From the NCBI GenBank assembly GCA_020073665.1, contig JAIQEU010000002.1, forward strand, positions 124,001 through 188,000: DNA of 64,000 nucleotides, given 5' to 3'. Positions within the stretch are counted from its first letter, which is position 1, and each line of letters starts with the position of its first letter. Shown piece by piece: positions 1,760-28,704 of the stretch. Position numbers and translations under genes: made by a program. The notes beneath the pieces were generated by a model that worked only from the letters and a program-made list of their open reading frames with translations, had not been told where the DNA came from and made no database searches. Origin of the DNA: Terriglobia bacterium. GTDB taxonomy: Bacteria > Acidobacteriota > Terriglobia > Terriglobales > Acidobacteriaceae.

Positions 1760-3298
1760 ATGCCTACGCGCCATCGCATAGCCCTACCCCTTGTTCTGGT
1801 CCTGATGGTGACGCTGCTCAGCGTTAGCAGTTACGCTATCCCCGCCTTTTCACGCCAATATGGCACCTCGTGCAGCACTTGCCATGTCGATTTCCCCAAG
1901 CTCAACGACTTCGGCAAGGCTTTCAAAGATGCCGGGTTCAAATTTCCCAAAGACGACGAAACCTTCATCAAGGTACCCCCGGTCATGCTGGGGGCCCCGG
2001 CCCAGAAGGACTTGTGGCCGCACACCATCTTCCCCGGCACCATCCCCGGGCTACCCCCGATCGGGCTGCGCTACAACACCTTCTTCCAGGTGGCCGGCAA
2101 CAGCCGGAACAACTTCAACGCCCAGTTGCCGGGAGACCCGACGGCGCCGTTTATCCCGCGCACGGATTTCCAGTCTGGCCTGTTCAGCATCTTCATGGCC
2201 GGGAACTTCGGCAGCGACATCGCCTTCTGGGTCGATGACGACATCAGTGTGGGTGGCGGCCCCGACGGTGGTCTGGGTGACGGCTATTTGAAGTTCGTCA
2301 ATATCGGCCGCTTCCTCAAGCTGCCCACCGACGCTCTCAGCTTGCGAGTAGGTCAGTTCGAACTCGACCTGCCGTTCAGCCCGGCGCGCAGCTGGAACCT
2401 GAGCGGTTGGGACATCTATGACCAGGCGAACGTCGGAGTGATGAACCCCGCGTTTAAGCAGCAGAATGTTAATAATCCATTCGCGCTCTCCAATGCCGCG
2501 CAAGGCGTGGAGTTCAGCGGCGGCCACACCTACCGCGGCTACCACTACTCAGTGGCCTTCGTGAACCAAAATACGAGTGGAAATGTGAGCGCCGGCAACA
2601 ACGTCCCGCCGGTGGTGGGTTACACCTCCGACTCCAACTTCAAAGATATCTACGCCCGCTTCTCCTACCGCTTTAACCTGGAGCGCGACCCGGCCAGCCG
2701 CAACGAAATCCAGGCGGCAGGAGCCACCGGGCCTCGCGATCACACCTACCTCAACATAGGAGGGTTGTATTTCTATGGGCGGTCGGTGCAACGCTTCTCG
2801 GACGAAGCCTCGGGCAACGTCTTGACGGCGCGCGAGCCCTTCTATCGCGTGGGCGCCGATTTCAGCCTCAACTACCGAACCTTCAACCTCTTTGGACAAT
2901 ACATTTACGGGCACGACCACGACCTGCTGCAGGTTCCCAACACCTTTGTGAAGGGAACCCCGGCCACCTTCGACGGCGGCTTTGTCGAAGCCGACTACCT
3001 GGCGCTGCCGTGGCTTATGACCATCATGCGCTGGGATGGAGTAAACTCCCGGGCCGACCGGATCAACGGTATCGGGTCCACGCCGGATGATTCGATCGGG
3101 TCGTTCGTTTCTCCCTTCCACTCCACTCGAAATCGCTTTACACCGGGCGTACAATTCCTTGTTCACGCCAACATAAAAACGTCATTCGAGTACCAGATCC
3201 GGCCGCAACAGGTGGTTTACGACCCGGTTACTGGAAACGCACTCACCAAACCGTTCCGCACCAACACAGCGGTAGCGGGGCTGGAGTTTGTCTACTAA
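1760..3298 (+). CDS. Monohaem cytochrome c fused to outer-membrane beta-barrel (Cyc2-like architecture)
   Basis: A 512-residue protein with a signal peptide (cleavage near SYA, residue 26), one haem c motif CSTCH (38-42), the following PKLNDFGKAFKDAGF segment, then about 440 residues of alternating, aromatic-rich strands ending in EFVY, as outer-membrane barrels do. A short N-terminal haem segment followed by a barrel is the architecture of the cytochrome-porin Cyc2, which oxidises Fe(II) at the outer membrane; related proteins occur in many lineages with unknown substrates. The start has a good ribosome site (AGGAGG, 7 nt spacing). A CRP/FNR-type site lies upstream and a hairpin follows. It probably passes electrons across the outer membrane. 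Direction and substrate are unknown, and barrel topology is inferred from strand pattern only. Confidence 0.7.
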   Translation: MPTRHRIALPLVLVLMVTLLSVSSYAIPAFSRQYGTSCSTCHVDFPKLNDFGKAFKDAGFKFPKDDETFIKVPPVMLGAPAQKDLWPHTIFPGTIPGLPPIGLRYNTFFQVAGNSRNNFNAQLPGDPTAPFIPRTDFQSGLFSIFMAGNFGSDIAFWVDDDISVGGGPDGGLGDGYLKFVNIGRFLKLPTDALSLRVGQFELDLPFSPARSWNLSGWDIYDQANVGVMNPAFKQQNVNNPFALSNAAQGVEFSGGHTYRGYHYSVAFVNQNTSGNVSAGNNVPPVVGYTSDSNFKDIYARFSYRFNLERDPASRNEIQAAGATGPRDHTYLNIGGLYFYGRSVQRFSDEASGNVLTAREPFYRVGADFSLNYRTFNLFGQYIYGHDHDLLQVPNTFVKGTPATFDGGFVEADYLALPWLMTIMRWDGVNSRADRINGIGSTPDDSIGSFVSPFHSTRNRFTPGVQFLVHANIKTSFEYQIRPQQVVYDPVTGNALTKPFRTNTAVAGLEFVY

Positions 3299-3308
3299 AT
3301 CTAAATAC

Positions 3309-3331
3309 GGGGAGGCGCCCCCTCCCCTTTC
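3309..3331 (+). terminator. GC hairpin between cytochrome-barrel and cupredoxin genes
   Basis: GGGGAGG and CCTCCCC (3309-3315 and 3321-3327) form a 7-bp stem with a 5-nt loop, followed by TTTC. It lies between the stop at 3298 and the next ribosome site. The short T tract suggests a partial terminator or an mRNA-stabilising hairpin. Confidence 0.5.
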
Positions 3332-3349
3332 TTGAGAACAGGAGAAATC

Positions 3350-3931
3350 ATGAAGCGCAATGTTCTGATAGCGATCGTAGCCGTGGCAGCACTCAGCCTG
3401 ATCGCCAGTGCCGGCACGATCAGTGGCAAGGTCTCTGGCGTGACTGGAGAATCCGTAGTCTATGTCGACACCATCGCCGGGAAGACTTTCCCTCCGCCGG
3501 CGACGCATCCCTTGATTGATCAGAAGGGTCTGCTCTTTCAGCCCCACATCACCGTGGTGCTGGCGGGCACGACCGTCGATTTCCTGAACAGCGACACCGT
3601 TGCCCACAACGTGTTCTGGCCCTCGGTAGGCGGCAACAAGAAGCTGACACACAACCTGGGGACATGGCCCAAGGGCGAGAAGCGCTCGTTCAAGTTCGAC
3701 AATCCGGGAGCAGCCCCGCTGTTTTGCAACGTGCATCCGGAAATGTCCGGCTACGTGGTGGTGGCGCCGACCCCGTACTTTGCCACGACCGACAAGTCGG
3801 GCGAGTACAAAATCGAGAACGTTCCCGACGGCAGCTACACCGTAACCGCCTGGCACGAAGGCGCCAAGAACCAATCCAAGCCGGTCACGGTGTCAGGTGA
3901 CACCAAAGCTGACTTCACCCTGAGCAAGTAG
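3350..3931 (+). CDS. Periplasmic cupredoxin with C-terminal carboxypeptidase-regulatory-like domain
   Basis: A 193-residue exported protein (signal peptide about 1-21). A plastocyanin/amicyanin-like domain carries plausible type 1 copper ligands His86 (VAHN) and Cys126, His129 and Met132 in FCNVHPEM; the C-x2-H-x2-M spacing is that of amicyanin. A beta-sandwich carboxypeptidase-regulatory-like repeat follows (about 140-190, SGEYKIENVPDGSYTV). Such proteins shuttle single electrons in the periplasm. The ATG at 3350 has AGGAG upstream; an in-frame TTG at 3332 is less likely. Its place between a cytochrome-barrel and a bc-type operon suggests it links the two. Confidence 0.85.
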   Translation: MKRNVLIAIVAVAALSLIASAGTISGKVSGVTGESVVYVDTIAGKTFPPPATHPLIDQKGLLFQPHITVVLAGTTVDFLNSDTVAHNVFWPSVGGNKKLTHNLGTWPKGEKRSFKFDNPGAAPLFCNVHPEMSGYVVVAPTPYFATTDKSGEYKIENVPDGSYTVTAWHEGAKNQSKPVTVSGDTKADFTLSK

Positions 3932-3934
3932 GGC

Positions 3935-3975
3935 GTTGAGGGGCGGCCACCTCCTCCGCCCCTCAACTTTCTTCT
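3935..3975 (+). terminator. Rho-independent terminator after the cupredoxin gene
   Basis: A 12-bp perfect stem (3935-3946 with 3956-3967, GTTGAGGGGCGG and its complement) with a 9-nt loop is followed by TTTCTTCTC. It separates the cupredoxin gene from the bc-type operon that begins at 4031. Confidence 0.75.
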
Positions 3976-4030
3976 CGATCCGTTACCAATTTCTCTAACC
4001 GCGTCACCATAAAGGACCAGATCGACCACC

Positions 4031-6010
4031 ATGCTGAAGCGCTACAAAGATAAGAAGGTGGACAGGGATTGGCTGAATACCAACTTTCCTTGCATGATGG
4101 CATGTCCGGCCCACACCAACGCCGGGCGCTACGTCGGGCTGATCGCCGAAGGACGGTTTGAAGAAGCCTACAAGCTGGCGCGCGATCCCAATCCCCTGGC
4201 CAGCATCTGCGGCCGCGTGTGCGCTCACCCTTGCGAGACCGCCTGCCGTCGCGGGGAAATTGACCGCCCCATCTCGATCCGAGCCCTGAAGCGATTCTTG
4301 ACCGAGCGGCACGGGCCCGAGTCCAAGCATCCCGTTGACATCAACGCCGGACGCGGCCAGCAACAACTGCCTTACAAAGTGGCGGTGGTCGGCGGCGGCC
4401 CGGTGGGACTCTCCGCTGCCCACGACCTGGCCTTGATGGGCTATTCGGTCACCATTTTTGAAGCCGCCCCGGTCGCGGGTGGAATGCTTTATCTGGGGAT
4501 TCCCGAGTACCGCCTGCCGCGCGACGTCGTCGAAGCCCAGGTGAGAGAGATCCTCGAAACCGGCGACATCACGCTGAAGCTCAACACCTCCGCGGGGCGC
4601 GACTTCCTGATTTCCGATCTCCGCCGCCAGGGCTTTGACGCCGTTCTGATTGCCGTGGGCGCACACCGCAGCCGCGATCTGACCATTCCCGGCGTGGACC
4701 TCGACGGCGTCTACAAGGGGATCGACTTTCTACTGAACGTGAACCTGGGCTACAAGTTCACCATCGGCAAGAAGGTCATCGTGATTGGCGGAGGCAACGT
4801 GGCCATGGACGTGGCCCGTTCCGCCGCGCGCGAAGTCGTCCGCCAGCATGTGGCCGGAGTGCAGGACCTGGAGCCCTCGGATGAGAATGTGAGCGCAGTC
4901 GCCACCAAGGAAATGGTCGACATCTCGCTCTCCGCCCTGCGCCTGGGCGCGCAGGAAGTGCACCTTGTCTGCCTGGAAAAACGCGAAGAGATGCCCGCCG
5001 CCCTGGAGGAGATCGAAGAAGCCGAAGAAGAGGGAATTCTCATGCATCCCGGGTTGGGGCCCAAGCGGATGATCGGGAAAGACGGCCGGGTCGTGGCGCT
5101 GGAGACGCTGAACACCAAGTGGGTCTTCGACGAGAACAAGCGCTTCAATCCGGCGTTCTATGAGGGCAGCGAAAGCCAGCTGGAATGCGACACCATTATT
5201 ATGGCCATCGGCCAGGCGCCGCGGCTGGATTTCCTCAAGCCGGAAGACGGCGTAGAACTCTCTCCCCGCGGCCTGATTGCAGTCAATCCTCAGACTCTGA
5301 TGACCTCAACACCGGGCATTTTCGCCGGCGGTGACTGCGTATTTGGCCCGCGCCTGATCATTGACAGCGTGGCCGACGGCAAGCGCGCGGCGGTGGGCAT
5401 CGATGAGTTCCTGCGCGGCGAGAAGCATCCCGACCCGATCGTGGAAGTGGAAATCTTCAAGCGTCACAGCATGCCCATCGAGCTGCTGGATCTGACCCGG
5501 CAGCCGGTCCCCATGCTGCCGCTGGAGCGTCGCACCGGAGTGACCGAGGTGGAGATCGGATACGACGCCGCCAGTGCCATGGAGGAAGCGCAGCGCTGCC
5601 TGCACTGCTGGGTGAACACGATCTTCGAAGGCAGTCCAGAAGACGGCAGCATGTGCATCCTGTGTGGCGGATGCGTGGACGTTTGCCCGGAGAATTGCCT
5701 GCAGCTGGTTTCGCTCGATCGCATTCAGTTCGATCCTCAGGCTGTGCAGCAGATCAGGGAAGAGCAGGAACTGTTCGGTGTAGAACTCGATGAAGTCGCG
5801 GCCGACGAACTGGGCGTGGTGACCGGTTCGGCCATGCTGAAAGACGAGACCCGCTGCATTCGCTGCGGGCTCTGCGCCGCCCGCTGTCCGGTGGGCACCA
5901 TCACCATGGAGTCCTACAACTTGCTTCCCGCAGAGCCGACCGGGCTGATTTCAGTGGAATCGCTGGATTCGCCGTTCCGACCCAAAGCGCCCGCGGGCGC
6001 TCCGAGGTAA
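4031..6010 (+). CDS. GltD-like FAD/NAD(P) oxidoreductase with N- and C-terminal Fe-S modules
   Basis: A 659-residue protein resembling the small subunit of glutamate synthase and related flavoprotein transhydrogenase subunits. The N-terminal Cys-rich domain has Cys 21, 25, 60, 64, 68 and 72. A FAD-binding GGGPVG follows (121-126), then an NAD(P)-binding GGGNVAMD near 254, and two 4Fe-4S ferredoxin motifs at the C-terminus (CILCGGC near 541, CIRCGLC near 608). It has no signal peptide, so it is cytoplasmic. Four bases separate it from the Rieske gene. Together this suggests an NAD(P)H-linked electron input or output for the bc-type complex. No glutamate synthase large subunit is present, so ammonia assimilation is unlikely. 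Confidence 0.8.
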   Translation: MLKRYKDKKVDRDWLNTNFPCMMACPAHTNAGRYVGLIAEGRFEEAYKLARDPNPLASICGRVCAHPCETACRRGEIDRPISIRALKRFLTERHGPESKHPVDINAGRGQQQLPYKVAVVGGGPVGLSAAHDLALMGYSVTIFEAAPVAGGMLYLGIPEYRLPRDVVEAQVREILETGDITLKLNTSAGRDFLISDLRRQGFDAVLIAVGAHRSRDLTIPGVDLDGVYKGIDFLLNVNLGYKFTIGKKVIVIGGGNVAMDVARSAAREVVRQHVAGVQDLEPSDENVSAVATKEMVDISLSALRLGAQEVHLVCLEKREEMPAALEEIEEAEEEGILMHPGLGPKRMIGKDGRVVALETLNTKWVFDENKRFNPAFYEGSESQLECDTIIMAIGQAPRLDFLKPEDGVELSPRGLIAVNPQTLMTSTPGIFAGGDCVFGPRLIIDSVADGKRAAVGIDEFLRGEKHPDPIVEVEIFKRHSMPIELLDLTRQPVPMLPLERRTGVTEVEIGYDAASAMEEAQRCLHCWVNTIFEGSPEDGSMCILCGGCVDVCPENCLQLVSLDRIQFDPQAVQQIREEQELFGVELDEVAADELGVVTGSAMLKDETRCIRCGLCAARCPVGTITMESYNLLPAEPTGLISVESLDSPFRPKAPAGAPR

Positions 6011-6013
6011 GTC

Positions 6014-6511
6014 ATGGCTATGGCTGACGAGAAAAAAACCGTAACCGCCGGACCAGTCGACGATGTGAGTCGGCGAGAATTTTTTGTGAAGCTGGGGCTG
6101 GGATCGCTCAGCATTGCGGCCGCCGGCACCACCGTCTTCGCCTACCAGTTCCTGTCGCCCAATGTGCTGTTCGAGCCGTCTCCCATCGTCAATGCCGGCA
6201 AGCCGGAAAGCTATCCGGTGGACTCGGTGACGCTCGACGTGAACTCCGGCATTTATCTGATCCATGCCAAAGAGGGATTCTTCGCGCTGAGCGCGGTTTG
6301 CACCCACCTCGGTTGCCTGACGGCGTGGAAGCCCGAGTTGGGCATCATCGCCTGCCCATGTCACGGCAGCAAGTTCAGCCGCGAAGGCGTCAAGCAGGAA
6401 GGCCCGGCGCCCAAGCCGCTGCCCTGGCTCCGCACCTGGGTGAGCGACGAGGGTGACTTGATGGTGGACCGTGACACCAGCATCCGGCCCATGGAGTATG
6501 TGAGGGTTTAA
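6014..6511 (+). CDS. Rieske 2Fe-2S protein of a bc-type complex
   Basis: A 165-residue protein with a twin-arginine-like N-terminus (SRREFFVKL), one membrane segment (about 29-48) and the two Rieske cluster boxes CTHLGC (96-101) and CPCHGS (114-119). The 2Fe-2S cluster accepts the first electron from quinol at the periplasmic face. A second Met two codons downstream is an alternative start. Its stop codon overlaps the start of the cytochrome b gene by one base (TAATG), implying translational coupling. Confidence 0.92.
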
Positions 6512-7311
6512 TGGCCAAGACAATCGAAAACTATTTCGACCAGATGCGCGGCACCCGGGTATGGCGCTCGGTCTTTCGTGGCGGCACCGGGTCCAGCACC
6601 CTGCGCCGCTCCCTCGCCATCCAGCAAAACGTGTTCCTGCATCTGTTCTCCACCAAGGTACGGCGCCGCATGCTCAGCTTCAGCGCCACCTGGTACTTGG
6701 GCACGCTGACCCTGGGAACATTCCTGATCCTGGTGAGCACCGGCATTTTCCTGATGCTCTACTACCATCCCTCGGTGCCGCAGGCCTACGCCGATACCAA
6801 GGACCTGCAGTTCGTGGTTTCTTCCGGCCTCTTCCTGCGCAACCTGCACCGCTGGTCGGCGCACGCCATGGTGTTCCTGGTGTTCGCGCACATGTTCAAG
6901 GTGTTCTATCGCGGTGCGTACCGTCCGCCGCGGGAATTCAACTGGGTGATCGGCGTCATCCTGCTGCTGATTACCCTGCTGCTCAGCTACACCGGCTACC
7001 TCCTTCCCTGGGACCAGTTGGCATACTGGGCGATCACGGTCGGCTCCAACATCGCAAAGGCCGTGCCAGTACTCGGCAACAACGTCCACTTCCTGATGCT
7101 GGGTGGCAACCTGGTGAATGCCAATGCGCTGCTGCGGTTCTATGTGCTGCACTGCATGATCCTGCCGCTTACGGCAATTGTGTTTATCGCCATCCACTTC
7201 TGGCGCATCCGCAAGGATGGCGGCCTGTATTCCCACCAGAGCGAACCGAAAACGCTAGCGGCCAAGGCCGTTCCCGCGCCGGCGGGAGCGGTGGCCAAGG
7301 GGGCGCAATGA
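6511..7311 (+). CDS. Cytochrome b N-terminal part (b6-type)
   Basis: A 266-residue integral membrane protein with about four helices. Haem-ligating His pairs are visible: His113 and His127 in helix B (13 residues apart) and His214 and His229 in helix D (14 apart), the 13/14 spacing of cytochrome b6. The quinol-oxidation and haem-binding half of cytochrome b is therefore encoded separately from the C-terminal half. A TAATG junction joins it to the Rieske gene and an ATGA overlap joins it to the next gene, so the three subunits are probably made together. Confidence 0.92.
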
Positions 7312-8012
7312 GCGATCCCAAAGATTTCGTAGCCGGTATGGGCTCGGACTTCCGCAAGAACCCGGTGCGGGTAGCATTCGTCACCCGCCGCACCTCCGCG
7401 CAAGTAAAGGTGACGGACGAAGACCAGGTACAGACTTTTCCCGAAGTGCTTTTCCGCGCCCTGGTTGCAATTGAACTTCTGACGATTGGCCTGGTGCTTA
7501 TCTCGCTGGCCTTCAACGCGCCGCTGGAAGGCTTGGCGGACCCGTCGCACACGCCCAATCCGGCCAAAGCGCCGTGGTATTTCCTCGGCTTGCAGGAAAT
7601 GCTGCACTACTTTCCCCCGGTGGTTGCCGGTGTGCTGGTCCCAACCCTGGTGGTGATCGCGCTGGTGGTGATTCCGTATTTCAACATCAACATTGAGGCC
7701 GAGGGCCTGTTCCTCAAAGATCGCAAACGACGGTTGCGAGTCTTCTACGTAGTAGTGGGACTGTTCTGCCTGTTCCTGCTCTACTTTGACGTTTACGTCG
7801 CGCTGGTACCGACCCTGATCGTGGCCGGGTTCATGTTGCTGGCCGCGCAGAGTTCTCCGGGTTCTTCTTCGGCGTTCCGGAGTTACCTGGCCTCCAAGCC
7901 GCTTTCCTACTGGATCATGACCTGGTTCTTGTTTGAACTCGTGGTGCTTACGGCCATTGGCACCTTCTTCCGCGGCCCGGGCTGGTCCTGGGTGTTGCCC
8001 TGGAGGAGCTAA
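7308..8012 (+). CDS. Cytochrome b C-terminal part (subunit IV type)
   Basis: A 234-residue membrane protein matching the C-terminal half of cytochrome b. The quinol-site motif, PEWY in mitochondrial and b6f proteins, appears as [11 protein letters not shown], a variant I recall from menaquinol-linked complexes of anaerobes and delta-like lineages. Three to four helices follow. The ATG overlaps the previous stop as ATGA. A menaquinol substrate is inferred from the motif variant only. Confidence 0.88.
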
Positions 8013-8016
8013 CTAA

Positions 8017-10071
8017 GTGCAATCATCCCGCAACAAATTGTCGGCGCTCTGGCAAACGTTGTTCGGCGATCCGATTCGCGCCTTTGGGGTGGTCAGCCTG
8101 CTGCTGCTGCTTTCGCTGGCCATTGCCCCGGCCAAGAATCACTTCAGCGAGTGGCGCCACTATCAGAACCAGTACCTCACGCTCATCCGCGGCCGCGGTG
8201 ACGCAGTCACCTTACGGCGTCACTTCCAGGGTGGCATTCAACAGATCTGGCTTCCGGAAATCGGCGCGGTCGACCGCTGCACCACCTGCCATGTCGGATT
8301 GAAAGAAGCCAGCCTGGTGGATGTCAGCACGCAGCCATTTCGGCGCCATCCAGCGATTCCCCACACCGCCGAGCAGTTCGGCTGCGTGATGTGCCACCGT
8401 GGACAAGGCGCCGCCACCACGGTCGAAGAAGCCCACAGCAGCACGCTGGCGTGGGAGCAGCCAATTCTGCCCGCGCGCTACATTGAGTCTTCCTGCGGGC
8501 AATGCCATCGTGCGCCGCTCGAGGGTACGCCGCAACTGAACTCTGGGCGCAATCTCTTGGCCCAGTCTGGCTGTGTACACTGCCACACTATTAAGCTGCC
8601 CGATGGCAGCGCCATGAAGGGAACTGACGACCCGCCCTCGCTCTTGCACATTGCCGACAAGACAACCCGGGATTGGATCTACGCCTGGTTGAAGGATCCG
8701 CAAGCCTACGCGGTCACGGCCAAGATGCCGAATTTCAAGCTCCGCGATGCCGACGCGCGCGACATCTCCGCTTTCCTTATTGCAAATAGCTCGCCTTTGC
8801 CCGGCGACGCTTCGCCCGTTGCCGCTGGCCAGAAAGCGCCCGATCCCACTGCCGGAGCGAGCTTGTACGGCGAGTCTTTCTGCGCTTCCTGCCACGCCGT
8901 GCAGAACGCCGCCGGCAACGTTGTCGGTGGCAACCTGGGCCCCGAGTTGACGCGGATCGGTACCAAAGTAAAGCCGGAGTGGCTGCAGGCCTGGGTGCGC
9001 AATCCCAGGGCTTACGACCCACCCACCGAGATGCCGCATTACCGCTTCAGCGACCAGCAAATCGCGGTGCTCACCGGTTTCCTTCTGAACAAAACGGATG
9101 CGGACTTGCTGGCCAACGTCCATCTGGATCCCGCTACACCGGAGCAGATCGCGCACGGCAAGACCCTGGTCACGGAGTACGGATGCGCGTCATGCCACCA
9201 GATTGTGGGCATCAAGAAGCCGGAGAACTTCGCCCCAGAGTTGACCCGCATCGGCAGCAAGCCGGTGACGCAGTTGGTCTTCCTGCCCGGCATGGCCCAC
9301 AATCTGCCGGACTACATCGCGGCCAAGATTCGCCAGCCGCGGTCGTTCGGCTCGGCGCTAAAGATGCCGCAGTACACCTTCACCACGGCCCAGATCGATG
9401 CCCTGGCCACGGCCCTGCTCTCGCTCACCGACCGCACCCAGAATCTGCCGGCGGCGCTGACTGTCCCGTCCGTACCGGCGTCCGATTACCAGCCCGCCGG
9501 CAAAGCCGGACAACTCATCACTGACCTGGCCTGCTTCAGCTGCCATCGCATCAACGGCCGTGGCGGCGACATGGCTCCGGATCTCACCTGGGAGGGAAGT
9601 TCGGTGCAACGGCAATGGCTGTTCGAATTCTTGAAGAATCCCAACACGCTGCGGCCGGCGCTGATCCGCCGCATGCCCAAGTTCAATCTCTCGGATGCCG
9701 ATATCAACGTGTTCACCGACTACATCATGACCGTTTACCAGACGCCGGCCTTCGATCGCGATTCCATGCCCAGCGGCGGCTATCCGCCGGCGCAGGTGGA
9801 GCAGGGCAAACAGCTTTTCTACTCCAAGTACGCTTGCCAGTCCTGCCACATCGTGGATACCAAGATGGACAAGGGTTACATCGGACCTACCCTCACTCAA
9901 GTCGGCTCGCGCCTGACCGCTGCCTGGATGTATCAGTGGATGAAGAATCCGCAAGCGCTGCGGCCGGGCACGATCGAGCCCAACCGCAACATGAGCGATG
10001 ACGACGCCCGAGCCCTGACCGCGTATCTTGCCTCGCTCAAAGGTTCCGGCAAGCGGGAGGCGAAGCAATGA
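8017..10071 (+). CDS. Membrane-anchored octahaem cytochrome c
   Basis: A 684-residue protein with an N-terminal membrane anchor (about 20-40) and eight CXXCH motifs, in order CTTCH, CVMCH, CGQCH, CVHCH, CASCH, CASCH, CFSCH and CQSCH. The internal similarity of the mono-haem modules points to tandem duplication. It probably takes the place of cytochrome c1 or f as electron acceptor for the Rieske protein and may store or relay several electrons. The start is GTG at 8017 with GGAGGAG eight bases upstream; no ATG fits. It overlaps the next gene by ATGA. Confidence 0.9.
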   Translation: MQSSRNKLSALWQTLFGDPIRAFGVVSLLLLLSLAIAPAKNHFSEWRHYQNQYLTLIRGRGDAVTLRRHFQGGIQQIWLPEIGAVDRCTTCHVGLKEASLVDVSTQPFRRHPAIPHTAEQFGCVMCHRGQGAATTVEEAHSSTLAWEQPILPARYIESSCGQCHRAPLEGTPQLNSGRNLLAQSGCVHCHTIKLPDGSAMKGTDDPPSLLHIADKTTRDWIYAWLKDPQAYAVTAKMPNFKLRDADARDISAFLIANSSPLPGDASPVAAGQKAPDPTAGASLYGESFCASCHAVQNAAGNVVGGNLGPELTRIGTKVKPEWLQAWVRNPRAYDPPTEMPHYRFSDQQIAVLTGFLLNKTDADLLANVHLDPATPEQIAHGKTLVTEYGCASCHQIVGIKKPENFAPELTRIGSKPVTQLVFLPGMAHNLPDYIAAKIRQPRSFGSALKMPQYTFTTAQIDALATALLSLTDRTQNLPAALTVPSVPASDYQPAGKAGQLITDLACFSCHRINGRGGDMAPDLTWEGSSVQRQWLFEFLKNPNTLRPALIRRMPKFNLSDADINVFTDYIMTVYQTPAFDRDSMPSGGYPPAQVEQGKQLFYSKYACQSCHIVDTKMDKGYIGPTLTQVGSRLTAAWMYQWMKNPQALRPGTIEPNRNMSDDDARALTAYLASLKGSGKREAKQ

Positions 10072-10802
10072 AGCAGCGCATCCTCATTTTCACCGTGATT
10101 GCATGCGCGATGGTTCTCAGCGGCTGCGCGCGCAAAGCTGTTCCGTCCCCGGTTCCCACTCCAACTGGTTTTGGGAGCGCGCTGGTTGAGTCCAGCGGCG
10201 GTAAGCAGACCGGCGCCGTAGGCACAACCCTGGGCCAGCCCGTGGTAGTGCAGGTGAACGACGATCAAGGCAACGCTGTCACCGGCGCGCTGGTAGAGTT
10301 CAGCGGACCGGCGGGCGTCAGCTTCGATCCCGCCAGCGGGCTGACCGACTCCAGCGGCCAGCTCAGCACCAATGTCTCGCTGGGTGGCATGGCCGGGCGG
10401 TACCAGGTCACCGCCACCACCGTCAGCAAAGCGCAGAAACGCGTTGACCTCAAGCTGGAAGAAATCGCGCTGGGGTACCAGCAGCTGGTGGGTGCCGAGC
10501 TCAACGACAAGTACTGCTCCCGCTGTCACGACCCTGAGTCCACTCCGGAACGGGTTTCCAATTACGACAATCTCGAAATCAAGCCGCATCCCTTCACCGA
10601 AGGTGACACCCTGAACAAGATGAGCGACGCCGACCTGGTGGCTATCATCAGCCACGGCGGCCCCGCGCTAAACAAGTCCGCGTTAATGCCGCCCTACGGC
10701 TATACTCTCAGCAAGACAGAGATCCAGGCGCTGATCGCTTATATCCGCCTGGCATCCGATCCTCCTTATCGCGCTTCCGGAATGGTGTATGCACAAAAAT
10801 AG
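10068..10802 (+). CDS. Lipoprotein with Ig-like domain and monohaem cytochrome c
   Basis: A 244-residue protein with a lipobox (VLSGC, Cys near 19), a bacterial Ig-like domain (about 55-135, with GNAVTGALVEFSGP and AGRYQVTATT typical of group 1 Ig-like repeats), then a small cytochrome c domain with CSRCH. A lipid-anchored haem next to the octahaem cytochrome suggests a further relay in the same chain. It overlaps the octahaem gene (ATGA) and the following gene by 14 bp, so all belong to one transcript. Confidence 0.8.
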   Translation: MKQRILIFTVIACAMVLSGCARKAVPSPVPTPTGFGSALVESSGGKQTGAVGTTLGQPVVVQVNDDQGNAVTGALVEFSGPAGVSFDPASGLTDSSGQLSTNVSLGGMAGRYQVTATTVSKAQKRVDLKLEEIALGYQQLVGAELNDKYCSRCHDPESTPERVSNYDNLEIKPHPFTEGDTLNKMSDADLVAIISHGGPALNKSALMPPYGYTLSKTEIQALIAYIRLASDPPYRASGMVYAQK

Positions 10803-12078
10803 ATCGTGCTGGCTGGGCTGTGTGCTGTTCATGGCCGCTGCGGCTTCGTTCGCCCAGGTGGTTTCTTCTGCCGAAATCAAAGATCCCGAGCTGCGTTCGC
10901 TGCAAACTCAATACATGGACGAACTGACAAGTGTTGGCCATGACATTCTGGCCAACAAGTTCGAATATCCGTTTTACCTGAGCCGCAAGCTCGATCTCGA
11001 CCAGGCACTGCAACAGAAGGCTGACCAGCGGTCCATCCGTTTCGATCGCTTCAATGGTGGGACGGTGGTCGCGGTCACGGGTAACTATTACGCCGCCTAT
11101 TCCGCGGACAAGGTCAATAGCGACCAGCGCGCTCGCAGTACTTTTCTCAACGTGGTGATGCCGATTCTGCAAGCCAGCGTGCCGCGGTTCCAGGGCAACA
11201 AAAAAGTCCAAGGCTATGCCATTGAAATTTCCCACCACATCCTGGGCAAAGTGATGGGCGTCTCCATGGAACGGCCGGAAAACCTGATGGTGTACCTGCC
11301 ACAAAGCGGAGCCATCAAGCTGCTGGCCGCCAAGGACGATTCCACGCGACAGGCCGCGCTGCTGCAGGGCCAGATTTTTCTAAACGCCCAGCCCATCACC
11401 ATCTGGTTGAATGGTGAGGGGCCGCAACTCGCCGCCGGTGCCACGCCCGGCGACACGGCAAACGACGACAAGCCCGGTTCTCAAGCCGGTGTGGAAGTCG
11501 TCCACAGCAGCGATGGGAGTTCCCCATCCGCGCCGATGGCCTTCCCGAAGCCCAAGGAGCCGCCACCGGCTCCGGTGCGAGACACTTCGCCGCAGAACCT
11601 GGCGTCACTGCACGATGCCAACCAGGCGCTGATCGGCGACATGGTGAAAGAACTCGATTCCCAGGCGCACTTCGTAGGCTACGCGCCCCCGAATTTCGTG
11701 GCGTTTCGCCAGGGAATCTACCTCGAGTTTTCGATGAACACCAATCTGCCCGAGTCAGCCGGCGGATCGCGCTACAGAATCGCGGCGATGGCGTTTGACG
11801 ATCATGTGGCCCACCTGATTCGCCCAATCATGGCCCACTTCAAGGACGAGCAGAATTTCGACGGTATCGGCTTCAGCACCACCGTGCACCTGGCAGGGAA
11901 GTCCGCCGCGTCGAGCACCTCGCAGGCTGTCGAGTTTTACTTTCCCCTGGCCGCTCTGCACTGCTACGAGAAATACGACTGCACTGGTCAGCAACTGATT
12001 GATGGCGGCACCGTTCTCATCAATGGAGAGCGCGTCAGTCTGGACTTGCAGGTCGCCGAGGGTGGCGCCAGCCACTGA
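10789..12078 (+). CDS. Secreted protein of unknown function, last gene of the bc-type operon
   Basis: A 429-residue protein with a signal peptide (cleavage near SFAQ, residue 22). I do not recognise a family. An N-terminal region of about 200 residues and a C-terminal region of about 130 residues flank a Pro/Ser-rich linker (about 225-265), so two globular domains are likely. It contains no haem motif. The start overlaps the upstream cytochrome lipoprotein gene by 14 bp, which argues for a shared job, perhaps assembly or a structural subunit of the respiratory complex. Confidence 0.65.
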   Translation: MHKNRSCWLGCVLFMAAAASFAQVVSSAEIKDPELRSLQTQYMDELTSVGHDILANKFEYPFYLSRKLDLDQALQQKADQRSIRFDRFNGGTVVAVTGNYYAAYSADKVNSDQRARSTFLNVVMPILQASVPRFQGNKKVQGYAIEISHHILGKVMGVSMERPENLMVYLPQSGAIKLLAAKDDSTRQAALLQGQIFLNAQPITIWLNGEGPQLAAGATPGDTANDDKPGSQAGVEVVHSSDGSSPSAPMAFPKPKEPPPAPVRDTSPQNLASLHDANQALIGDMVKELDSQAHFVGYAPPNFVAFRQGIYLEFSMNTNLPESAGGSRYRIAAMAFDDHVAHLIRPIMAHFKDEQNFDGIGFSTTVHLAGKSAASSTSQAVEFYFPLAALHCYEKYDCTGQQLIDGGTVLINGERVSLDLQVAEGGASH

Positions 12079-12216
12079 ACATTCCTGCGGCGCCTTGGTT
12101 TCTCCGTCCCTTGCGGCCGTCGCATCCACCTGCACGATAGTAACTTCGCGCCGAAAGCCTCCCGCGATAGCATGTGCGAATAAGCCGGTTTGCCCCCGCG
12201 ATCAGGGAGGCCTCAC

Positions 12217-12771
12217 ATGCGTGCACAGAAAACGGCGATTCTTCTCGCCATCACGATCGGCTTAATTGTCTTGCCCGGTTTCGGCCAGTCACTCGGTGAA
12301 GTGGCCCGCCAGCAGCGCCAGAAGCAGCAGGCCAAGGACGCCCATCCCGCTCACAAAATCATCACCAACGAGGACCTTCCCGCACATCCCGAATCCGAGC
12401 CGAGCGCGGCCAGCCTCCAGGACGAAAAGCGCGCGGACGCTTCCATCGGCAGGGGTGAAAAACATGCCAATCCGCCTGCCCCGGGTTCACCCAGCGATCC
12501 AGGCGCTGCGGAACAGTGGAAGGCCACGATTCAGGCACAGAAGAACGCCGTCGCTTCTATGCAAGGCGAGATCGAGAAGCTCCGCGACTCCATCCATTTC
12601 GTGGAAGCCAACCGCTACTACAACGGTGTCGAGTACAACCAGGACCAGTTGAGGAAGCAGCAGGAAGTCGAGCGGCTTCAGAAGCAGTTGGACGGGGAAA
12701 AGAAAAAACTTGAGGAGATGCAGGAGTCAGCACGCAAAGCGGGCTTCGGCAGCGCGGTGTACGACCCGTAG
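12217..12771 (+). CDS. Exported coiled-coil protein, unknown
   Basis: A 184-residue protein with a signal peptide (cleavage near GFGQ), a polar Gln/Lys/Ala-rich stretch, then a predicted coiled coil in the C-terminal half (about 105-172, regular Glu/Lys/Gln heptads). GGGAGG lies six bases before the ATG. The function is unknown. Periplasmic location is inferred from the signal peptide. Confidence 0.6.
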   Translation: MRAQKTAILLAITIGLIVLPGFGQSLGEVARQQRQKQQAKDAHPAHKIITNEDLPAHPESEPSAASLQDEKRADASIGRGEKHANPPAPGSPSDPGAAEQWKATIQAQKNAVASMQGEIEKLRDSIHFVEANRYYNGVEYNQDQLRKQQEVERLQKQLDGEKKKLEEMQESARKAGFGSAVYDP

Positions 12772-13053
12772 GCCGTGGAGTACATAGCTGCCCTCGCGAC
12801 AATAACCGAATAGGTTGTACGAAACCATTTTCTCCTGTTGCCAAGTACGCCAGCCCGACATCGCAATGGAGTCGAAAGTTTTTCCGGCTGGTATGAAAGT
12901 CTCCAGTCCTCACTCTCGTCCGGTGTGATTTTCAAATCAATTGTGGAAAAATGTGGCTACTTGGCTATTGAAGCCGGTTCCGGGCGCATGTAGACTTCGT
13001 CTGCACTCACTGGGCCCCAGCAACAAACCTTACGAACGGAAGAAAAGGTAAAG

Positions 13054-13290
13054 ATGCGGGCCATCCTCCCCCTGCTGTTGGCCTTCTCGGCCTTTGCTGC
13101 GCCACTCCTTGTGACGCTTGCCCTCGGGGAAGCGCTCGCCTTCGCGCTGGCCAGGTTGTTGAGCCTCTGGTCTCCGGCTCTCGGTTTCATCGTATTCGTA
13201 ATTTTTTCGGTGTGGCTGGTGCGTTTGCTCTGGCGATGCGCGCTGTCGATCGGCGATGGCTGGGGCACGGGGACCAAAGCCAAGTCTTAG
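13054..13290 (+). CDS. Small two-helix membrane protein, hypothetical
   Basis: A 78-residue, very hydrophobic product with two likely membrane helices (about 3-38 and 42-62) and a short hydrophilic tail. A weak AAGG ribosome-like site precedes the ATG. It ends 16 bp before the convergent DUF983 gene. The preceding 282 bp (12772-13053) shows no gene or clear element. Composition could also arise by chance from GC-rich sequence, hence the modest confidence. Confidence 0.4.
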   Translation: MRAILPLLLAFSAFAAPLLVTLALGEALAFALARLLSLWSPALGFIVFVIFSVWLVRLLWRCALSIGDGWGTGTKAKS

Positions 13291-13306
13291 TTCCCAGTTC
13301 ACGAGG

Positions 13307-13708
13307 CTACATCGAAGGCGGTGATTCCGGGTCAACCGCCCGGTCGAGGTAGATCCAGAGCACGCGCGCCAACAAAGTCAGGGATGGCGCCAGCGGCAGG
13401 AACAGCACCACTGCCCAGGTCACGGTCTTCTGCAGCGGCCATCGAAGCGTGAACCACAGCGCCGCGGCGAGCAGGATGATGACCATCAATGCCAGCGCAT
13501 AACTGATGTACATCGCCCCCAGAAAATAACCTTGTTCCCGTTCGAACTTCAAACCACAACTTGGACAGCATTCGTGCATCTTGGGAAAGCCGGTGAAAAT
13601 CGAGGAGCGAAAAATGTGGCCCGTCCGGCATCGCGGACACCGTTGGCGCAATATGGCCGCCGCAGTCGATCTTGAAGCAAGGGTTTCCACGGACTGACGC
13701 CCGTACAA
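13307..13708 (-). CDS. DUF983-family membrane protein
   Basis: A 133-residue protein with a zinc-ribbon-like N-terminus (CPRC and CPSC pairs, about 24-27 and 48-51) followed by two membrane helices, the layout of DUF983. Members are often found near cytochrome oxidase genes but have no proven function. The C-terminus is acidic and proline-rich. Confidence 0.75.
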   Translation of the reverse strand: MYGRQSVETLASRSTAAAILRQRCPRCRTGHIFRSSIFTGFPKMHECCPSCGLKFEREQGYFLGAMYISYALALMVIILLAAALWFTLRWPLQKTVTWAVVLFLPLAPSLTLLARVLWIYLDRAVDPESPPSM

Positions 13709-13731
13709 GTCTACCGAAAATGCGGGCGGAT

Positions 13732-13855
13732 GACCTCAGACCTCAGAACTGGGAGTGTTCCTCGGCGGGCACGCAGAGGGGTGCAGACCTGGTCGCAACT
13801 CGCCGCTACAAATTGGTCTGAGGTTTGAAGCCCGAGGTCTGACCGCTGACCTCCG
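13732..13855. repeat. Inverted heptad array (GACCTCA word)
   Basis: The left arm (13732-13750) repeats AGACCTC with 7-nt period. The right arm (13814-13855) carries reverse-complement words such as GGTCTGA and GAGGTCT. About 60 bp lie between. It sits upstream of the DUF983 gene and abuts the 3' end of the VWFA gene. The word is the same type as the array in the atpD-atpC gap. Confidence 0.6.
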
Positions 13856-13857
13856 GC

Positions 13858-14847
13858 TTAAGGGCCTGCCGACTCCACGGGAGCAAAGTAGCCCTTTCGG
13901 TGTTGCACCTTGAGGCCCTTCTTGCGCGCCGTGATTTCGATTGAACGGAACGAACCGTCCGGTTTGAAGTCGGCGGGGTGATAGCCGACGGCGTATTGGC
14001 TGCGCAGGGCTTTCTCGACCTGGGTGAAAGCCTGCTTCAAGTCGCCCTCCTCCCGCGCCGGCAGAATATGTCCTCCGGTCGGCTCGGTCAGCAGCGTCAT
14101 GACGGCGTCGCCCTTGGGATGCTTGTTGTCCTCCAGGTTGTTGGTGCTAAGCGCGTAGATCACGACATCAGCACGGGCGGCCGCTTCTTCGGCATCCGTC
14201 AGGATGGCCCGGCTCTTGGTGTCCATTCCATCGCTGATCAGGATGATCGCCCGCCGCGTGACTTGCGACTCCCGGTTCTGCTGTAGCTTGTCACAGGCAA
14301 AGATCACGGCGTCATACAACGACGTTTCTCCTTCCGATTTCAAAGAGTGGATGGCCTTGCCCAGTTGGTCGACGTTGCCCGTCATGTCCTGTGCCAGATT
14401 GACGGTGCCATCAAATCCCACCACGAAAGCCCGGTCCACATCCGGCCGTAGAATTTTCTTGAGGAAGGTGCTGGCGGCTTTCTGCTCGAACTTGAAGCGC
14501 CCGCGGATGGAGTCACTTTCGTCGATGAGCAGCCCCACTCGCAGCGGCAGGTCGGTTTGCGGGTGGAAATATCCCATGGCCCGCGGCGGTTGGTGATTGT
14601 CGAGGAACTGAAACGCACTGGACGGAAGCGCGCTGACAAAGTGTCCCTTGGAATCGGTCACGGTGAAGATCAGGTTCACTTCGTCCACCCGCTTGGTGAT
14701 GGTGATCCCGGACGATTCGATGTCCGGGCTGTCTTTGTGCTCTTCGAATGCCGCCACATCGGCGAGCTGCGCCGCAGTGCAGGTTGCCCCAATCAACAAG
14801 ACAAGAACGAGTCGGATAAGACCTTGACCGCTCAAACGGGACCCCAT
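13858..14847 (-). CDS. VWFA-domain protein of the acidobacterial type
   Basis: A 329-residue exported protein (signal or membrane segment about 8-27). The von Willebrand factor A fold shows a MIDAS set: DESDS in the first loop, the Thr of GETSLYDA and the Asp of SDGMD. The flanking segments (FTVTDSKGHFV, FQFLDN, YAVGYHP, RKGYF) match the VWFA-related family expanded in Acidobacteria (TIGR03436). The function is unproven; extracytoplasmic metal-dependent adhesion is assumed. The chosen ATG has AGAAGGA upstream; a longer frame begins 13 codons earlier. Confidence 0.85.
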   Translation of the reverse strand: MGSRLSGQGLIRLVLVLLIGATCTAAQLADVAAFEEHKDSPDIESSGITITKRVDEVNLIFTVTDSKGHFVSALPSSAFQFLDNHQPPRAMGYFHPQTDLPLRVGLLIDESDSIRGRFKFEQKAASTFLKKILRPDVDRAFVVGFDGTVNLAQDMTGNVDQLGKAIHSLKSEGETSLYDAVIFACDKLQQNRESQVTRRAIILISDGMDTKSRAILTDAEEAAARADVVIYALSTNNLEDNKHPKGDAVMTLLTEPTGGHILPAREEGDLKQAFTQVEKALRSQYAVGYHPADFKPDGSFRSIEITARKKGLKVQHRKGYFAPVESAGP

Positions 14848-15153
14848 AAATAGTCCTTCTGGTCCGGACCGGTGTACAGCGTGCAAGACTTCTTGGCGTG
14901 GACCGTGCTATGCCGGAGCAGGCAGGAATACAGGAACCAGCTGCCGGGCGTTGCGCACATTTTAGACCGCGTTTACCCCGATGCAAGCGCAAGCGCAAAA
15001 ATATCTTTGGAGTGCAATCGAGTGCGCGTCCTCGGTTGACACTGCACGGTACAACAGCGTCATGTCAGGAGCTGTGATGACAGAAATTCGAGGAACTGGG
15101 AACGGACAACTGCCCTGTGGTTCAGTCACTGACGCTCTGAGGAGGTCTGCAAA
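14848..15153. other. Gene-free gap of 306 bp
   Basis: Between the starts and ends of two minus-strand genes. A TTGACA hexamer near 15036 has no good -10 partner at the usual spacing. No convincing ORF, hairpin or repeat is visible. Confidence 0.5.
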
Positions 15154-16929
15154 TCACTTAGTGTTTACAAGGAGCGCGGGCAACGCGGCTTTCTGCTGGA
15201 TACCTTGCCCTTCGATCAGAGTGTAAATGAGGTCCGCCACCACGTCTTTCAGCACTTCGATGTTGCCGCTCGGCCAGCGGATTTCTACCCGCTCCATCCT
15301 GCTTTCTTTTCCGAGACCGAAATGCAGTCGCGGATCGTTTTGCGAGATGTAGCTGCCCCCGGCACGTACTTCGCGGATCTGAGTCAGGCCTTCCGTTTTC
15401 ACCGTGACCCGCGCTCCAATTGCCATGCGATTGCTCTTGCTACCGATCAGTTTGAAGACTACCCGGTGATTGCTGTTCCCGCCCCGGTTGATCAGCAGAG
15501 TTGGAGGCTGGCCAACGTTCACCAGCACGACGTCCATATTGCCGTCGTTGTTGATATCGCCGAACGCCGCCCCCCGGCGCGATTCCTCCTGAAGCCCAGC
15601 CAGCCCGCTGGACACGTCTTCAAACGTGCCGTCGCGTTTATTGCGGAACAGTTGTATCGGCTCGCGATAATGTGCGCCGCCCGGAATTGAGTCCACCTGC
15701 GGATACACGTGCCCGTTGGCCACGAACAGGTCGAGCCAGCCATCGTTGTCCATGTCGAAAAACGCGGTGCCCCATCCCACGTACGGATAGGTCGGCTTGG
15801 CCAGTTGGCTGGGCCAGCTGACGTCGGAAAATCCCTCCTGCCCCAGGTTGCGATACAAGGTATCGGGCTGCTCGGTAAAGTTGGTAACGAACATCGCCAT
15901 GCGGCCCTGGTTCAGGTAATCGCCCCAGTCCACGCCCATCGATCCCTGCTCCAGGCCATCGGCGCTTACTGCAATGCCCGAGAGCATGCCGAGTTCTTCA
16001 AACGTCCCATTGCGCAAGTTGTGGTAGAGGTAGTTGGGCCCGGCGTCGTTGGCCACGTACAAGTCCGGCCAGCCGTCGTTGTCGTAATCGCCCCAGATGG
16101 CGCCCAAGCCGTAATAACCGGCCGGGTCGTCAACCCCGGCTTTCTTCGAGACTTCTTCAAAGGTGCCGTCACCGCGGTTATGGAAGAGCACGTCCGATTC
16201 TCCCAGCATGCCCCACGGCCCGCATTGCACCAGGATTCCCTTGAAGCGGCAGTTCTTCTCATCGCTGCCAAAATCCGGCAACTTGTTCATGTCGAAATGC
16301 ACGTAGCGTGAGACGAACAGATCGACACGGCCGTCGCGGTCATAGTCGGCCCAAGCCGCGCCAGTGCTGAATCCACCCACGGCCACCCCAGCCTTGTCGG
16401 TGACGTCCTCAAACTTGCAGTTGCCTAGGTTGTGATACAGCGCGTTGCCGCCGTATCCAGTCACGTAAATATCGGGCAGACCATCGTTGTCGTAGTCGGC
16501 GACTGCAACGCCCATGCCCCAACCCTTGCGAGCCAATCCGGCCGATGCGGTGATGTCGGTGAATTTCAGGTCAGCATCCTGGTGGTAGAGCGTAATCAGG
16601 CGATCGCCGCCCTGACGGTAGCGCTCGATGGTTGACCCGTTCACCGTGATGATGTCGAGCTTGCCATCGTTGTCGCAATCGATCAAACCCGCGCCGCCGC
16701 TCATCGACTCCACAATGTATTTCTTGTCTGGAGTGGAAATGTGCGAGACGGTCAGGCCCGCCTGTTTGGCCACATCTTCGAAATGGGGCAGTGGAGTGGC
16801 GGCGGGGTGAGGCATTGCAGGCGGAGCCTTGGCCACGGCTTTCCTCGGAGGTGGCGTTACCGTGCGCCCCGCCATTTGGGCAGAGGCCATTGCGGAAAGC
16901 AGCAGAACCAGGGGCAAGAGTATGCGCAT
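15154..16929 (-). CDS. FG-GAP/VCBS-repeat protein with ASPIC/UnbV C-terminal domain (CRTAC1-like)
   Basis: A 591-residue exported protein (signal peptide ending near ASAQ). Many FG-GAP/VCBS repeats run through residues 60-470, each with the calcium-binding D-x-D-N-D-G signature (for example DYDNDGLPD, DYDRDGRVD, DMDNDGWLD), predicting an integrin-like beta-propeller. The ASPIC/UnbV domain follows (about 500-570, REVRAGGSYISQNDPRLHFG). These proteins are abundant in Acidobacteria and Planctomycetes; their role is unknown, possibly carbohydrate or surface binding. The start at 16929 is chosen because the signal peptide begins there; the longer frame adds 15 residues. Confidence 0.85.
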   Translation of the reverse strand: MRILLPLVLLLSAMASAQMAGRTVTPPPRKAVAKAPPAMPHPAATPLPHFEDVAKQAGLTVSHISTPDKKYIVESMSGGAGLIDCDNDGKLDIITVNGSTIERYRQGGDRLITLYHQDADLKFTDITASAGLARKGWGMGVAVADYDNDGLPDIYVTGYGGNALYHNLGNCKFEDVTDKAGVAVGGFSTGAAWADYDRDGRVDLFVSRYVHFDMNKLPDFGSDEKNCRFKGILVQCGPWGMLGESDVLFHNRGDGTFEEVSKKAGVDDPAGYYGLGAIWGDYDNDGWPDLYVANDAGPNYLYHNLRNGTFEELGMLSGIAVSADGLEQGSMGVDWGDYLNQGRMAMFVTNFTEQPDTLYRNLGQEGFSDVSWPSQLAKPTYPYVGWGTAFFDMDNDGWLDLFVANGHVYPQVDSIPGGAHYREPIQLFRNKRDGTFEDVSSGLAGLQEESRRGAAFGDINNDGNMDVVLVNVGQPPTLLINRGGNSNHRVVFKLIGSKSNRMAIGARVTVKTEGLTQIREVRAGGSYISQNDPRLHFGLGKESRMERVEIRWPSGNIEVLKDVVADLIYTLIEGQGIQQKAALPALLVNTK

Positions 16930-16979
16930 GATGGACAGGCTGAAGAAATTATAGAGGAGGTGCGCCGCGATCAAATGTT

Positions 16980-17020
16980 CCTCTGTGTCCCCTGCGCCCT
17001 CTGTGGTTAAAGTCTTGGTT
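16980..17020. repeat. 9-nt-period intergenic repeat
   Basis: CCTCTGTGT, CCCCTGCGC and CCTCTGTGG follow one another at exactly 9-nt spacing, ending in TTAAAG. Read on the minus strand this is CTTTAA followed by CCACAGAGG-type words, the same design as the central core of the larger composite arrays at 33, 35, 36.5 and 38.7 kb. Confidence 0.6.
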
Positions 17021-17024
17021 CTGG

Positions 17025-18122: not shown

Positions 18123-18253
18123 GAGCTTTTGTCTCAACCTGATGCATCCAATGTACCGGGTTAGCCACACTCGGGGAAGCCTTAACCATTGTCACTTTGC
18201 CGGTTCTGAGGCATCCACTTAATATGGATAAGTTCGCGTGCGTGAGTTCGAAT

Positions 18254-28697: not shown

Positions 28698-28704
28698 GTA
28701 AGAA

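Follow-up and report, generated by a model that had tools for sequence, protein, structure and literature searches.

Does a soil acidobacterium pass electrons through a haem-bearing barrel in its outer membrane, and in which direction would they run? The question is raised by a compact block of genes, all on the (+) strand, at positions 1760-12078 of a 64,000-nucleotide stretch of DNA (the window; positions 124,001-188,000 of contig JAIQEU010000002.1 from Terriglobia bacterium GCA_020073665.1, an assembly of 5.4 Mb). An earlier note had read these genes as a linear route from the outside to quinone and on to nicotinamide adenine dinucleotide (phosphate), NAD(P). Our tentative answer, given a probability of about 0.47, is that a menaquinol-oxidizing Rieske/cytochrome b complex of the anammox type is wired to an outer-membrane barrel resembling Cyc2, with electrons split between NAD+ and the outer membrane and net outward flow. 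Every gene that had been named in the block is present on one strand and all are adjacent, but the GltD-like gene stands third, after the cupredoxin, and not last:

1760..3298, + strand: Cyc2-like fused mono-haem cytochrome and 16-strand OprP-like barrel, 512 residues, predicted from motifs, AlphaFold2 and fold search
3309..3327, + strand: GC-rich hairpin between the barrel and cupredoxin genes, just 3' of the barrel stop codon, from a terminator-like scan
3350..3931, + strand: cupredoxin with a complete type-1 copper motif (H...CxxHxxM) and a carboxypeptidase-regulatory-like domain (Pfam Copper-bind PF00127, CarboxypepD_reg)
4031..6010, + strand: GltD-like NAD-binding flavoprotein with iron-sulfur (Fe-S) clusters (Pyr_redox_2, Fer4_20, Fer4; Pfam/NCBIfam)
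6014..6511, + strand: Rieske 2Fe-2S protein, CTHLGC / CPCHGS (Pfam Rieske)
6511..7311, + strand: b6-type cytochrome b with four haem-ligand His, and His44 and Arg234 at the place of a proposed interfacial haem b (Pfam Cytochrome_B, alignments)
7308..8012, + strand: subunit IV-like protein, APWY replacing PEWY at the Qo site (Pfam Cytochrom_B_C)
8017..10071, + strand: octahaem c-type cytochrome with a membrane anchor, replacing cytochrome f (eight CXXCH, N-terminal hydrophobic segment, five stretches matching Pfam Cytochrom_C)
10068..10802, + strand: lipoprotein with a bacterial immunoglobulin (Ig)-like and one cytochrome c domain (Pfam Cytochrome_CBB3, Big_1; lipobox LSGC by eye)
10789..12078, + strand: conserved protein, often closing the block (many loci have a homologue in the corresponding position)

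The inner-membrane part of this set has described relatives. According to excerpts of PMC12954380, Kuenenia stuttgartiensis has two complexes (Kuste4569-4574 and Kustd1480-1485) with a b6-like cytochrome b, subunit IV, a multihaem c and an NAD(P) oxidoreductase, whose subunits comigrate and which are proposed to form NAD(P)H by bifurcation, a proposal in anammox bacteria too; a combination with a GltD-like subunit had thus been described, contrary to what the earlier note supposed. The window has the same adjacent set of Rieske protein, b6-like cytochrome b, subunit IV, multihaem c and GltD-type Fe-S flavoprotein, and by sequence its core is a relative of these complexes. In 59 genomes from the order of a Scalindua genome, 26 had a match at 1e-100 (15 near full length, 11 partial), and seven loci (L210-L216) were taken from five matching genomes. 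Four of them (L211, L212, L214 and L215) run Rieske, GltD, cytochrome b, subunit IV, multihaem c (a pentahaem c in L215) and octahaem protein, as in Kuste4569-4574; L213 and L216 run Rieske, GltD, cytochrome b, subunit IV and octahaem c, as in Kustd1480-1485; and L210 has cupredoxin, Rieske, cytochrome b, GltD and subunit IV.

The likeness extends to single residues. The interfacial haem b proposed in section 3.3 of PMC12954380 involves His43 and Arg247 of Kuste4571 and Arg511 of Kuste4570, and these residues fall at exactly the published numbers in L215, so that the numbering can be transferred: the window equivalents by alignment to L215 are His44 and Arg234 of cytochrome b and Arg522 of the GltD-like protein. 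Among the 117 of 120 loci (acidobacterial and named sets) in which cytochrome b could be aligned, His44 is kept in 116 and Arg234 in 104, and Arg522 is kept in 124 of 125 GltD relatives. The Qo motif is APWY in 116 of 127 loci and AAWY in one, with none found in 10. Subunit IV of the window gave four hydropathy peaks, with one stretch fitting two spans, where L215 gave five. At the helix A position of the haem-cN Cys, the window cytochrome b has Tyr62, and because this Cys is missing we regard the window complex as a relative and variant of the anammox type without haem cN rather than the same complex.

The GltD-like protein has NfnA, formate dehydrogenase-type proteins and the GltD small chain as relatives in the PDB, and 15 of its Cys positions are kept in 124 or all 125 of 125 GltD relatives. 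Where the second Rossmann strand ends, the aligned PDB relatives have YRR, which we take to be the motif that binds the 2'-phosphate of NADP, whereas the Rieske-linked proteins have CLE, with its Glu316 kept in 124 of 125 GltD relatives; because CLE replaces YRR, the residues suggest that the subunit uses NAD rather than NADP. All matches in a plasmid search with this protein were below 60% identity.

The outer-membrane end is recognizable from its haem segment. Following a hydrophobic N terminus (residues 7-25 by hydropathy), the barrel has a single CXXCH (CSTCH) at residue 38, with AIPAFSRQY ahead of it and PKL coming three residues later; the Cyc2 consensus excerpted from PMC8406198 is AXPXFAR[Q/K][T/Y] before CXXCH and PXL after. 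The window protein has the N-terminal CXXCH with PXL shortly after, and a predicted 16-strand OprP-like porin in a chain of 512 residues, where at least 365 are expected, so the Cyc2-like architecture noted earlier is borne out. Its AIPAFSRQY departs from the strict motif by one residue, for which reason we call it Cyc2-like and do not class it as Cyc2. Speaking likewise against strict membership, excerpts of PMC12285243 give 0 oxiEET genes for Geothrix, which carries the set (below), in a largely FeGenie-based pipeline. Operon barrels (n = 90) had the haem motif within the open reading frame (ORF) in 85 cases, comprising 27 with the strict Cyc2 motif, 52 with a relaxed one, 5 with M or L at the Q/K place and 1 (L154) with neither; the 5 others were mostly cut ORFs. 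Six barrel ORFs that lacked the haem motif or were too short were left out of alignments A2 and A3.

Structure prediction agreed in part with the suggestion of a 16-strand barrel holding its haem inside. AlphaFold2 (40-row alignment) gave 16 long strands with a predicted template modelling score of 0.70 and a mean predicted local distance difference test (pLDDT) of 67.5, but residues 21-46, which include the haem motif, scored below 50, so that the haem segment is of low confidence. The top PDB folds were OprO and OprP (VIA-align Z 25.7 and 25.6, 313-317 residues at 3.3-3.4 A), with general porins at 23.5, and OprP ranked 2 in Foldseek; the structural match named for Cyc2 itself is also an OprP structure, 2O4V (PMC8406198, excerpts). 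A PDB sequence search with the barrel returned nothing meaningful and a plasmid search no match. In a tree of 53 barrels the window protein groups with operon barrels. These fall into two unlike subtypes, T1 and T2; the joining of T2 to paralogues from the window's own genome was flagged as a long-branch effect, and the predicted T2 structure also has 16 strands, if weakly (mean pLDDT 53).

The strongest argument that barrel and complex share a function is that parts are swapped while the neighbourhood is kept. We took as named loci the best 80 of at least 559 confirmed GltD relatives, mostly from Acidobacteriota, the closest listed among them being Acidobacteriaceae and Terriglobia metagenome-assembled genomes at 90% identity. 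These loci were found with GltD as bait. A Rieske protein and a cytochrome b each occur in 79 of them, a cupredoxin in 75 and, by hidden Markov model (HMM), a barrel in 64, counting the doubtful L154 (41 bits, motif unfitting); the one locus without Rieske or cytochrome b beside GltD, L120, is cut. Rieske, cytochrome b and GltD occur in more than one gene order, and the barrel lies on the same strand as the complex in 64 of 64 cases. Eleven of the 16 loci without a barrel end where it could lie (flank lengths by eye), and five do not (L118, L147, L148, L151 and L152). The two subtypes alternate at the operon, 5' or 3': the 44 T1 barrels are upstream except in L155, and the 20 T2 barrels are upstream or 4.7-5 kb downstream of GltD. 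In L047 and L068 a mono-haem cytochrome occupies the place of the cupredoxin. The full type-1 copper motif is present in 111 of the 112 loci with a cupredoxin match. Of 142 loci examined for the Rieske protein, 12 gave no match; in 128 of the other 130 the ligand motif is complete with its Ser.

A second sample came from the phylum. We fetched 39 loci from the 106 matching among 297 acidobacterial genomes, leaving out the window genome's own paralogue L057; they are not the 39 best, strong matches such as G133, G174, G242, G062 and G032 having been left out. A barrel was present in 26 (20 T1, 6 T2), and among the 13 without one, one was cut and 12 also had no cupredoxin. Barrel-bearing loci further occur in Ignavibacteria, Bacteroidetes, Neomarinimicrobiota, Eisenbacteria records and Scalindua. 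The set of barrel, cupredoxin, GltD, Rieske, cytochrome b, subunit IV and octahaem c is present in Geothrix campi and G. terrae, along with the Ig-cytochrome lipoprotein at least by HMM. In Scalindua (L217/L230), the run of Rieske, cytochrome b, GltD (550 bits) and subunit IV follows two cupredoxins and two barrels, of which one lies about 8 kb farther upstream; its other GltD locus, L151, has the cupredoxin and no barrel. This conserved order in far relatives puts the block well beyond chance and upholds the linkage of barrel, cupredoxin, Rieske/cytochrome b and GltD that had been pointed out. Barrel and GltD distances correlate strongly (Mantel r 0.916, 0 of 2000 permutations), which indicates common travel only, as vertical descent alone would yield the same.

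How would such a set work? In Rieske/cytochrome b complexes, the c-type side is the high-potential branch and the b-haem side the low-potential branch of one quinol. We assign GltD to the lower branch and the octahaem c, lipoprotein cytochrome, cupredoxin and barrel to the upper one, and since NAD and the barrel are on opposite branches, the linear path from barrel to quinone to NAD(P) proposed earlier is not the natural reading. The complex would instead either split electrons, with NADH made and an electron exported, or merge them, with NADH used and an electron imported. In the splitting mode, the subunits would form one physical complex oxidizing quinol, presumably menaquinol, at a periplasmic site. 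One electron would pass from the Rieske protein to the octahaem c, then to the lipoprotein cytochrome (by its domains a likely periplasmic relay) and/or the cupredoxin, and on to the barrel haem and an extracellular or pore-entering oxidant. The other would pass through bP, bN, the proposed interfacial haem b, the Fe-S clusters and flavin adenine dinucleotide to NAD+, and export of the high-potential electron would pay for NADH formation.

Several observations weigh against this outward reading, and the energetics come first. With menaquinone assumed as the quinone, we used excerpted potentials of -70 mV for menaquinone and -320 mV for NAD (PMC12954380), and of +208 mV for Cyc2PV-1 and 0 +/- 100 mV at pH 7 or 770 mV at pH 2 for Fe(III)/Fe(II) (PMC8406198). 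Before proton-motive force is counted, splitting would yield no more than about 28 mV with a haem at +208 mV and cost about 180 mV with neutral-pH Fe(III); proton-motive force would make it harder still. Outward flow consequently needs an acceptor well above +200 mV, and a Rieske potential similar to that of Kuenenia, above +300 mV; candidate acceptors would be acid Fe(III) (about +590 mV on the same reckoning), Mn(IV), oxygen and nitrogen oxides. For inward flow, the potentials permit neutral Fe(II) as donor. Second, the haem-cN Cys is present in 3 of 117 cytochrome b rows against 7 of 7 anammox-type rows, and His44, Arg234 and APWY also occur in a second cytochrome b set of the same genome (C17) that has no GltD; these residues are therefore no proof of NAD coupling. 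Third, barrel and complex part company in places. In the tree of 53, operon barrels are interspersed with barrels that lack the complex (6 changes). Of 32 genomes with a T1 barrel match at or below 1e-60, 23 have a GltD match at 1e-60 and 9 do not (by-eye count); in eight of these nine (L219-L226), the stretch fetched has barrel and cupredoxin without GltD, Rieske or cytochrome b. The ninth, L227, has the barrel with none of these and no cupredoxin in the stretch fetched, several of the L219-L227 contigs being short. Barrel and cupredoxin are thus a unit that exists also without the complex. Finally, Geothrix and Holophaga have been suggested to take up electrons from Fe(II) (PMC11748539, excerpts), and a paralogous barrel beside an oxidase on contig C41, described below, may point to uptake chains in the same cell.

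That the direction could be either, as the earlier note allowed, stands. We nevertheless prefer outward flow because Geothrix, an electrogen according to excerpts of PMC12285243, carries the set, RuBisCO is absent (no match at E 0.001; other CO2-fixation routes were not looked for) and NADH would be consumed by inward flow. Excerpts of PMC6344600 report homologues of Cyc2 among Fe(III)-reducing taxa, Ignavibacteriaceae being one.

The first alternative is the same complex in reverse, with electrons from an extracellular donor such as Fe(II) entering by the barrel and merging with those of NADH to reduce menaquinone with the aid of proton-motive force. By the quoted potentials this confurcation is downhill by about 180 mV for neutral-pH Fe(II), Cyc2 of an iron oxidizer accepts Fe(II) electrons (PMC8406198, excerpts), and the Fe(II) consumption suggested for Holophaga and Geothrix and the uptake-like surroundings of the C41 barrel would suit it. 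It consumes NADH rather than forming it, and the anammox authors judged NAD(P)H-driven quinone reduction unlikely owing to energy loss (PMC12954380, excerpts); with no RuBisCO match, and with the set in Geothrix, which is described as an anaerobic respirer, we consider it unlikely.

Equally improbable, in our estimate, is that the GltD-like subunit acts on its own as a soluble enzyme, sharing a transcript for the sake of regulation, beside a plain quinol:extracellular oxidoreductase of Rieske, cytochrome b, octahaem c and barrel running an ordinary Q-cycle. A Desulfobacterales locus (L218) with barrel, cupredoxin, Rieske, cytochrome b, octahaem c and Ig-cytochrome lipoprotein but no GltD speaks for this, as does the fact that His44 is not specific to GltD complexes. 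Against it, 79 of the 80 named loci have Rieske and cytochrome b beside GltD, with more than one arrangement among them, the anammox subunits comigrate, and the haem-cN Cys is missing, which makes a QN site of the b6f kind unlikely. A last idea is that a small redox-active solute, such as a metal ion, a nitrogen oxide or a quinone shuttle, enters through the barrel and reacts at a periplasmic haem plug, the chain serving a specific dissolved oxidant and not minerals. In its favour, the fold is closest to OprO/OprP, and Cyc2 is modelled with a single haem at the periplasmic mouth so that the substrate must enter the pore (PMC8406198, excerpts). As a separate explanation it is doubtful, for it is compatible with outward flow from menaquinol and would mainly refine it.

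Other loci in the genome suggest that the barrel is one of several fittings. Four cytochromes b of this superfamily are encoded: the window's, C10, C17 and C33:213506. The C10 set (L057; G000:C10:59500-79000, 8472-19048) runs GltD, Rieske, fused cytochrome b and hexahaem c, followed by a molybdenum (Mo) enzyme, a Tat-signal member of the type II dimethyl sulfoxide (DMSO)-reductase family with alpha and beta subunits above curated cut-offs. Type II DMSO-reductase relatives include both reductases and dehydrogenases, so this paralogue does not settle the direction. Because the C10 set has a Mo enzyme, and anammox loci an octahaem protein, in its stead, the barrel would mark an exchangeable high-potential end of the core. 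The neighbours of the C17 cytochrome b were read by eye as haem-synthesis and oxidase-assembly genes. The C33 set (L162; G000:C33:204000-223500, 7811-17294) has a Rieske protein, a PEWY cytochrome b and a nonahaem c, near a 766-residue membrane protein that is presumably akin to nitric oxide reductase (no NCBIfam match). Two further barrels lie elsewhere, each with a CarboxypepD-like protein. The first (L005; G000:C41:22501-42500, 3243-10332, minus strand) has the strict motif AIPAFARKY. Beside it lie a dihaem c that matches cytochrome 579 weakly (51.9 bits, cut-off 280) and genes that by eye encode an aa3-type oxidase, the whole resembling an iron-oxidation chain. The second (L006; G000:C6:85001-105000, 7421-10401, minus strand) has a dihaem c and no adjoining oxidase.

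Within the block, neighbouring genes overlap or are at most 4 bases apart from the GltD-like gene to 12078, with larger gaps of about 51 bases (barrel to cupredoxin) and about 99 bases (cupredoxin to GltD-like). From this spacing a single transcript is likely, and only likely because the hairpin at 3309-3327 could attenuate transcription, in which case barrel expression may exceed that of the complex. The terminator-like scan found 13 sites in the region against 9.3 expected, and among 19 relatives folded over 45 bases the hairpin was strong in five (L078, L088, L129, L141 and L143), seen by eye further on in L103 and weak or absent in the remaining 13. The cupredoxin start, ATG 3350 after AGGAG, was picked by eye in an ORF opening at 3332, with ligands read off the translation; the earlier label "amicyanin-like" is loose, TIGR02657 scoring 28.6 bits against a cut-off of 110.2. 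Eight CXXCH motifs in 8017-10071 confirm the octahaem cytochrome. The Big_1 match of the lipoprotein is at 33.4 bits (cut-off 34.9), and the 10789-12078 protein had no match in Pfam or NCBIfam. Next to the barrel in L136, L149, L221 and L225 the same two ORFs recur, one of about 650-800 and one of 460-470 residues, which by size would fit a histidine kinase and an NtrC-type regulator. Elsewhere in the window, at 27885-31896, are genes for an electron-transfer flavoprotein (ETF) subunit and ETF-quinone oxidoreductase.

Both modules, the Cyc2-type barrel and the NAD(P)-linked Rieske complex, are already described; what looks new, within the literature searched, is the conserved pairing of the two across several phyla, together with the lost haem cN, CLE for YRR and the exchange of barrel subtypes. 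Their combination was not named in the titles and abstracts that we found in the open-licence literature. Cyc2-like proteins serve as markers of iron oxidation, yet the relatives described here, those of Geothrix included, accompany a quinol-oxidizing NAD-type complex. Should electrons indeed flow outward, Cyc2-type barrels are not readable as iron oxidases without their context. A wider proposal, possible though somewhat short of an even chance, is a widespread two-membrane bifurcating machine in which one menaquinol electron exits by a mono-haem barrel to a high-potential oxidant and the other makes NADH, with barrel subtypes, Mo enzyme and octahaem reductase plugging into a common core. If so, extracellular respiration would yield reducing power directly in many phyla. 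The NAD(P)-linked Rieske complex discussed for anammox bacteria (PMC12954380, excerpts) is now found in cultured organisms too, Geothrix campi SG10 and G. terrae SG184, which opens the proposal of bifurcation to testing.

Three known systems invite comparison. Like Cyc2 as excerpted from PMC8406198, the window barrel has a single N-terminal CXXCH, PXL, at least 365 residues and a predicted 16-strand OprP-like barrel; it differs in AIPAFSRQY and in its linkage to a quinol-oxidizing NAD-type complex. The cytochrome b, a membrane subunit and the multi-c cytochrome match ExtP, ExtQ and ExtS of selenite and tellurite reduction operons (NF040969-NF040971), but all below curated cut-offs (260.6 bits of 290, the ExtP value for cytochrome b, then 53.5 of 150 and 91.1 of 100). 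The closest likeness is to the Kuenenia complexes (PMC12954380, excerpts), with a Rieske protein, b6-like cytochrome b, subunit IV, a multihaem c for cytochrome f, a GltD-type Fe-S oxidoreductase and the His/Arg/Arg positions of the proposed interfacial haem b. The window departs from these in having GltD before Rieske, where L211-L216 have it after, Tyr62 in place of the haem-cN Cys, and an octahaem c built of mono-haem domains without an octahaem HAO-like partner gene; to the shared core it adds a cupredoxin, an Ig-cytochrome lipoprotein and the Cyc2-like barrel.

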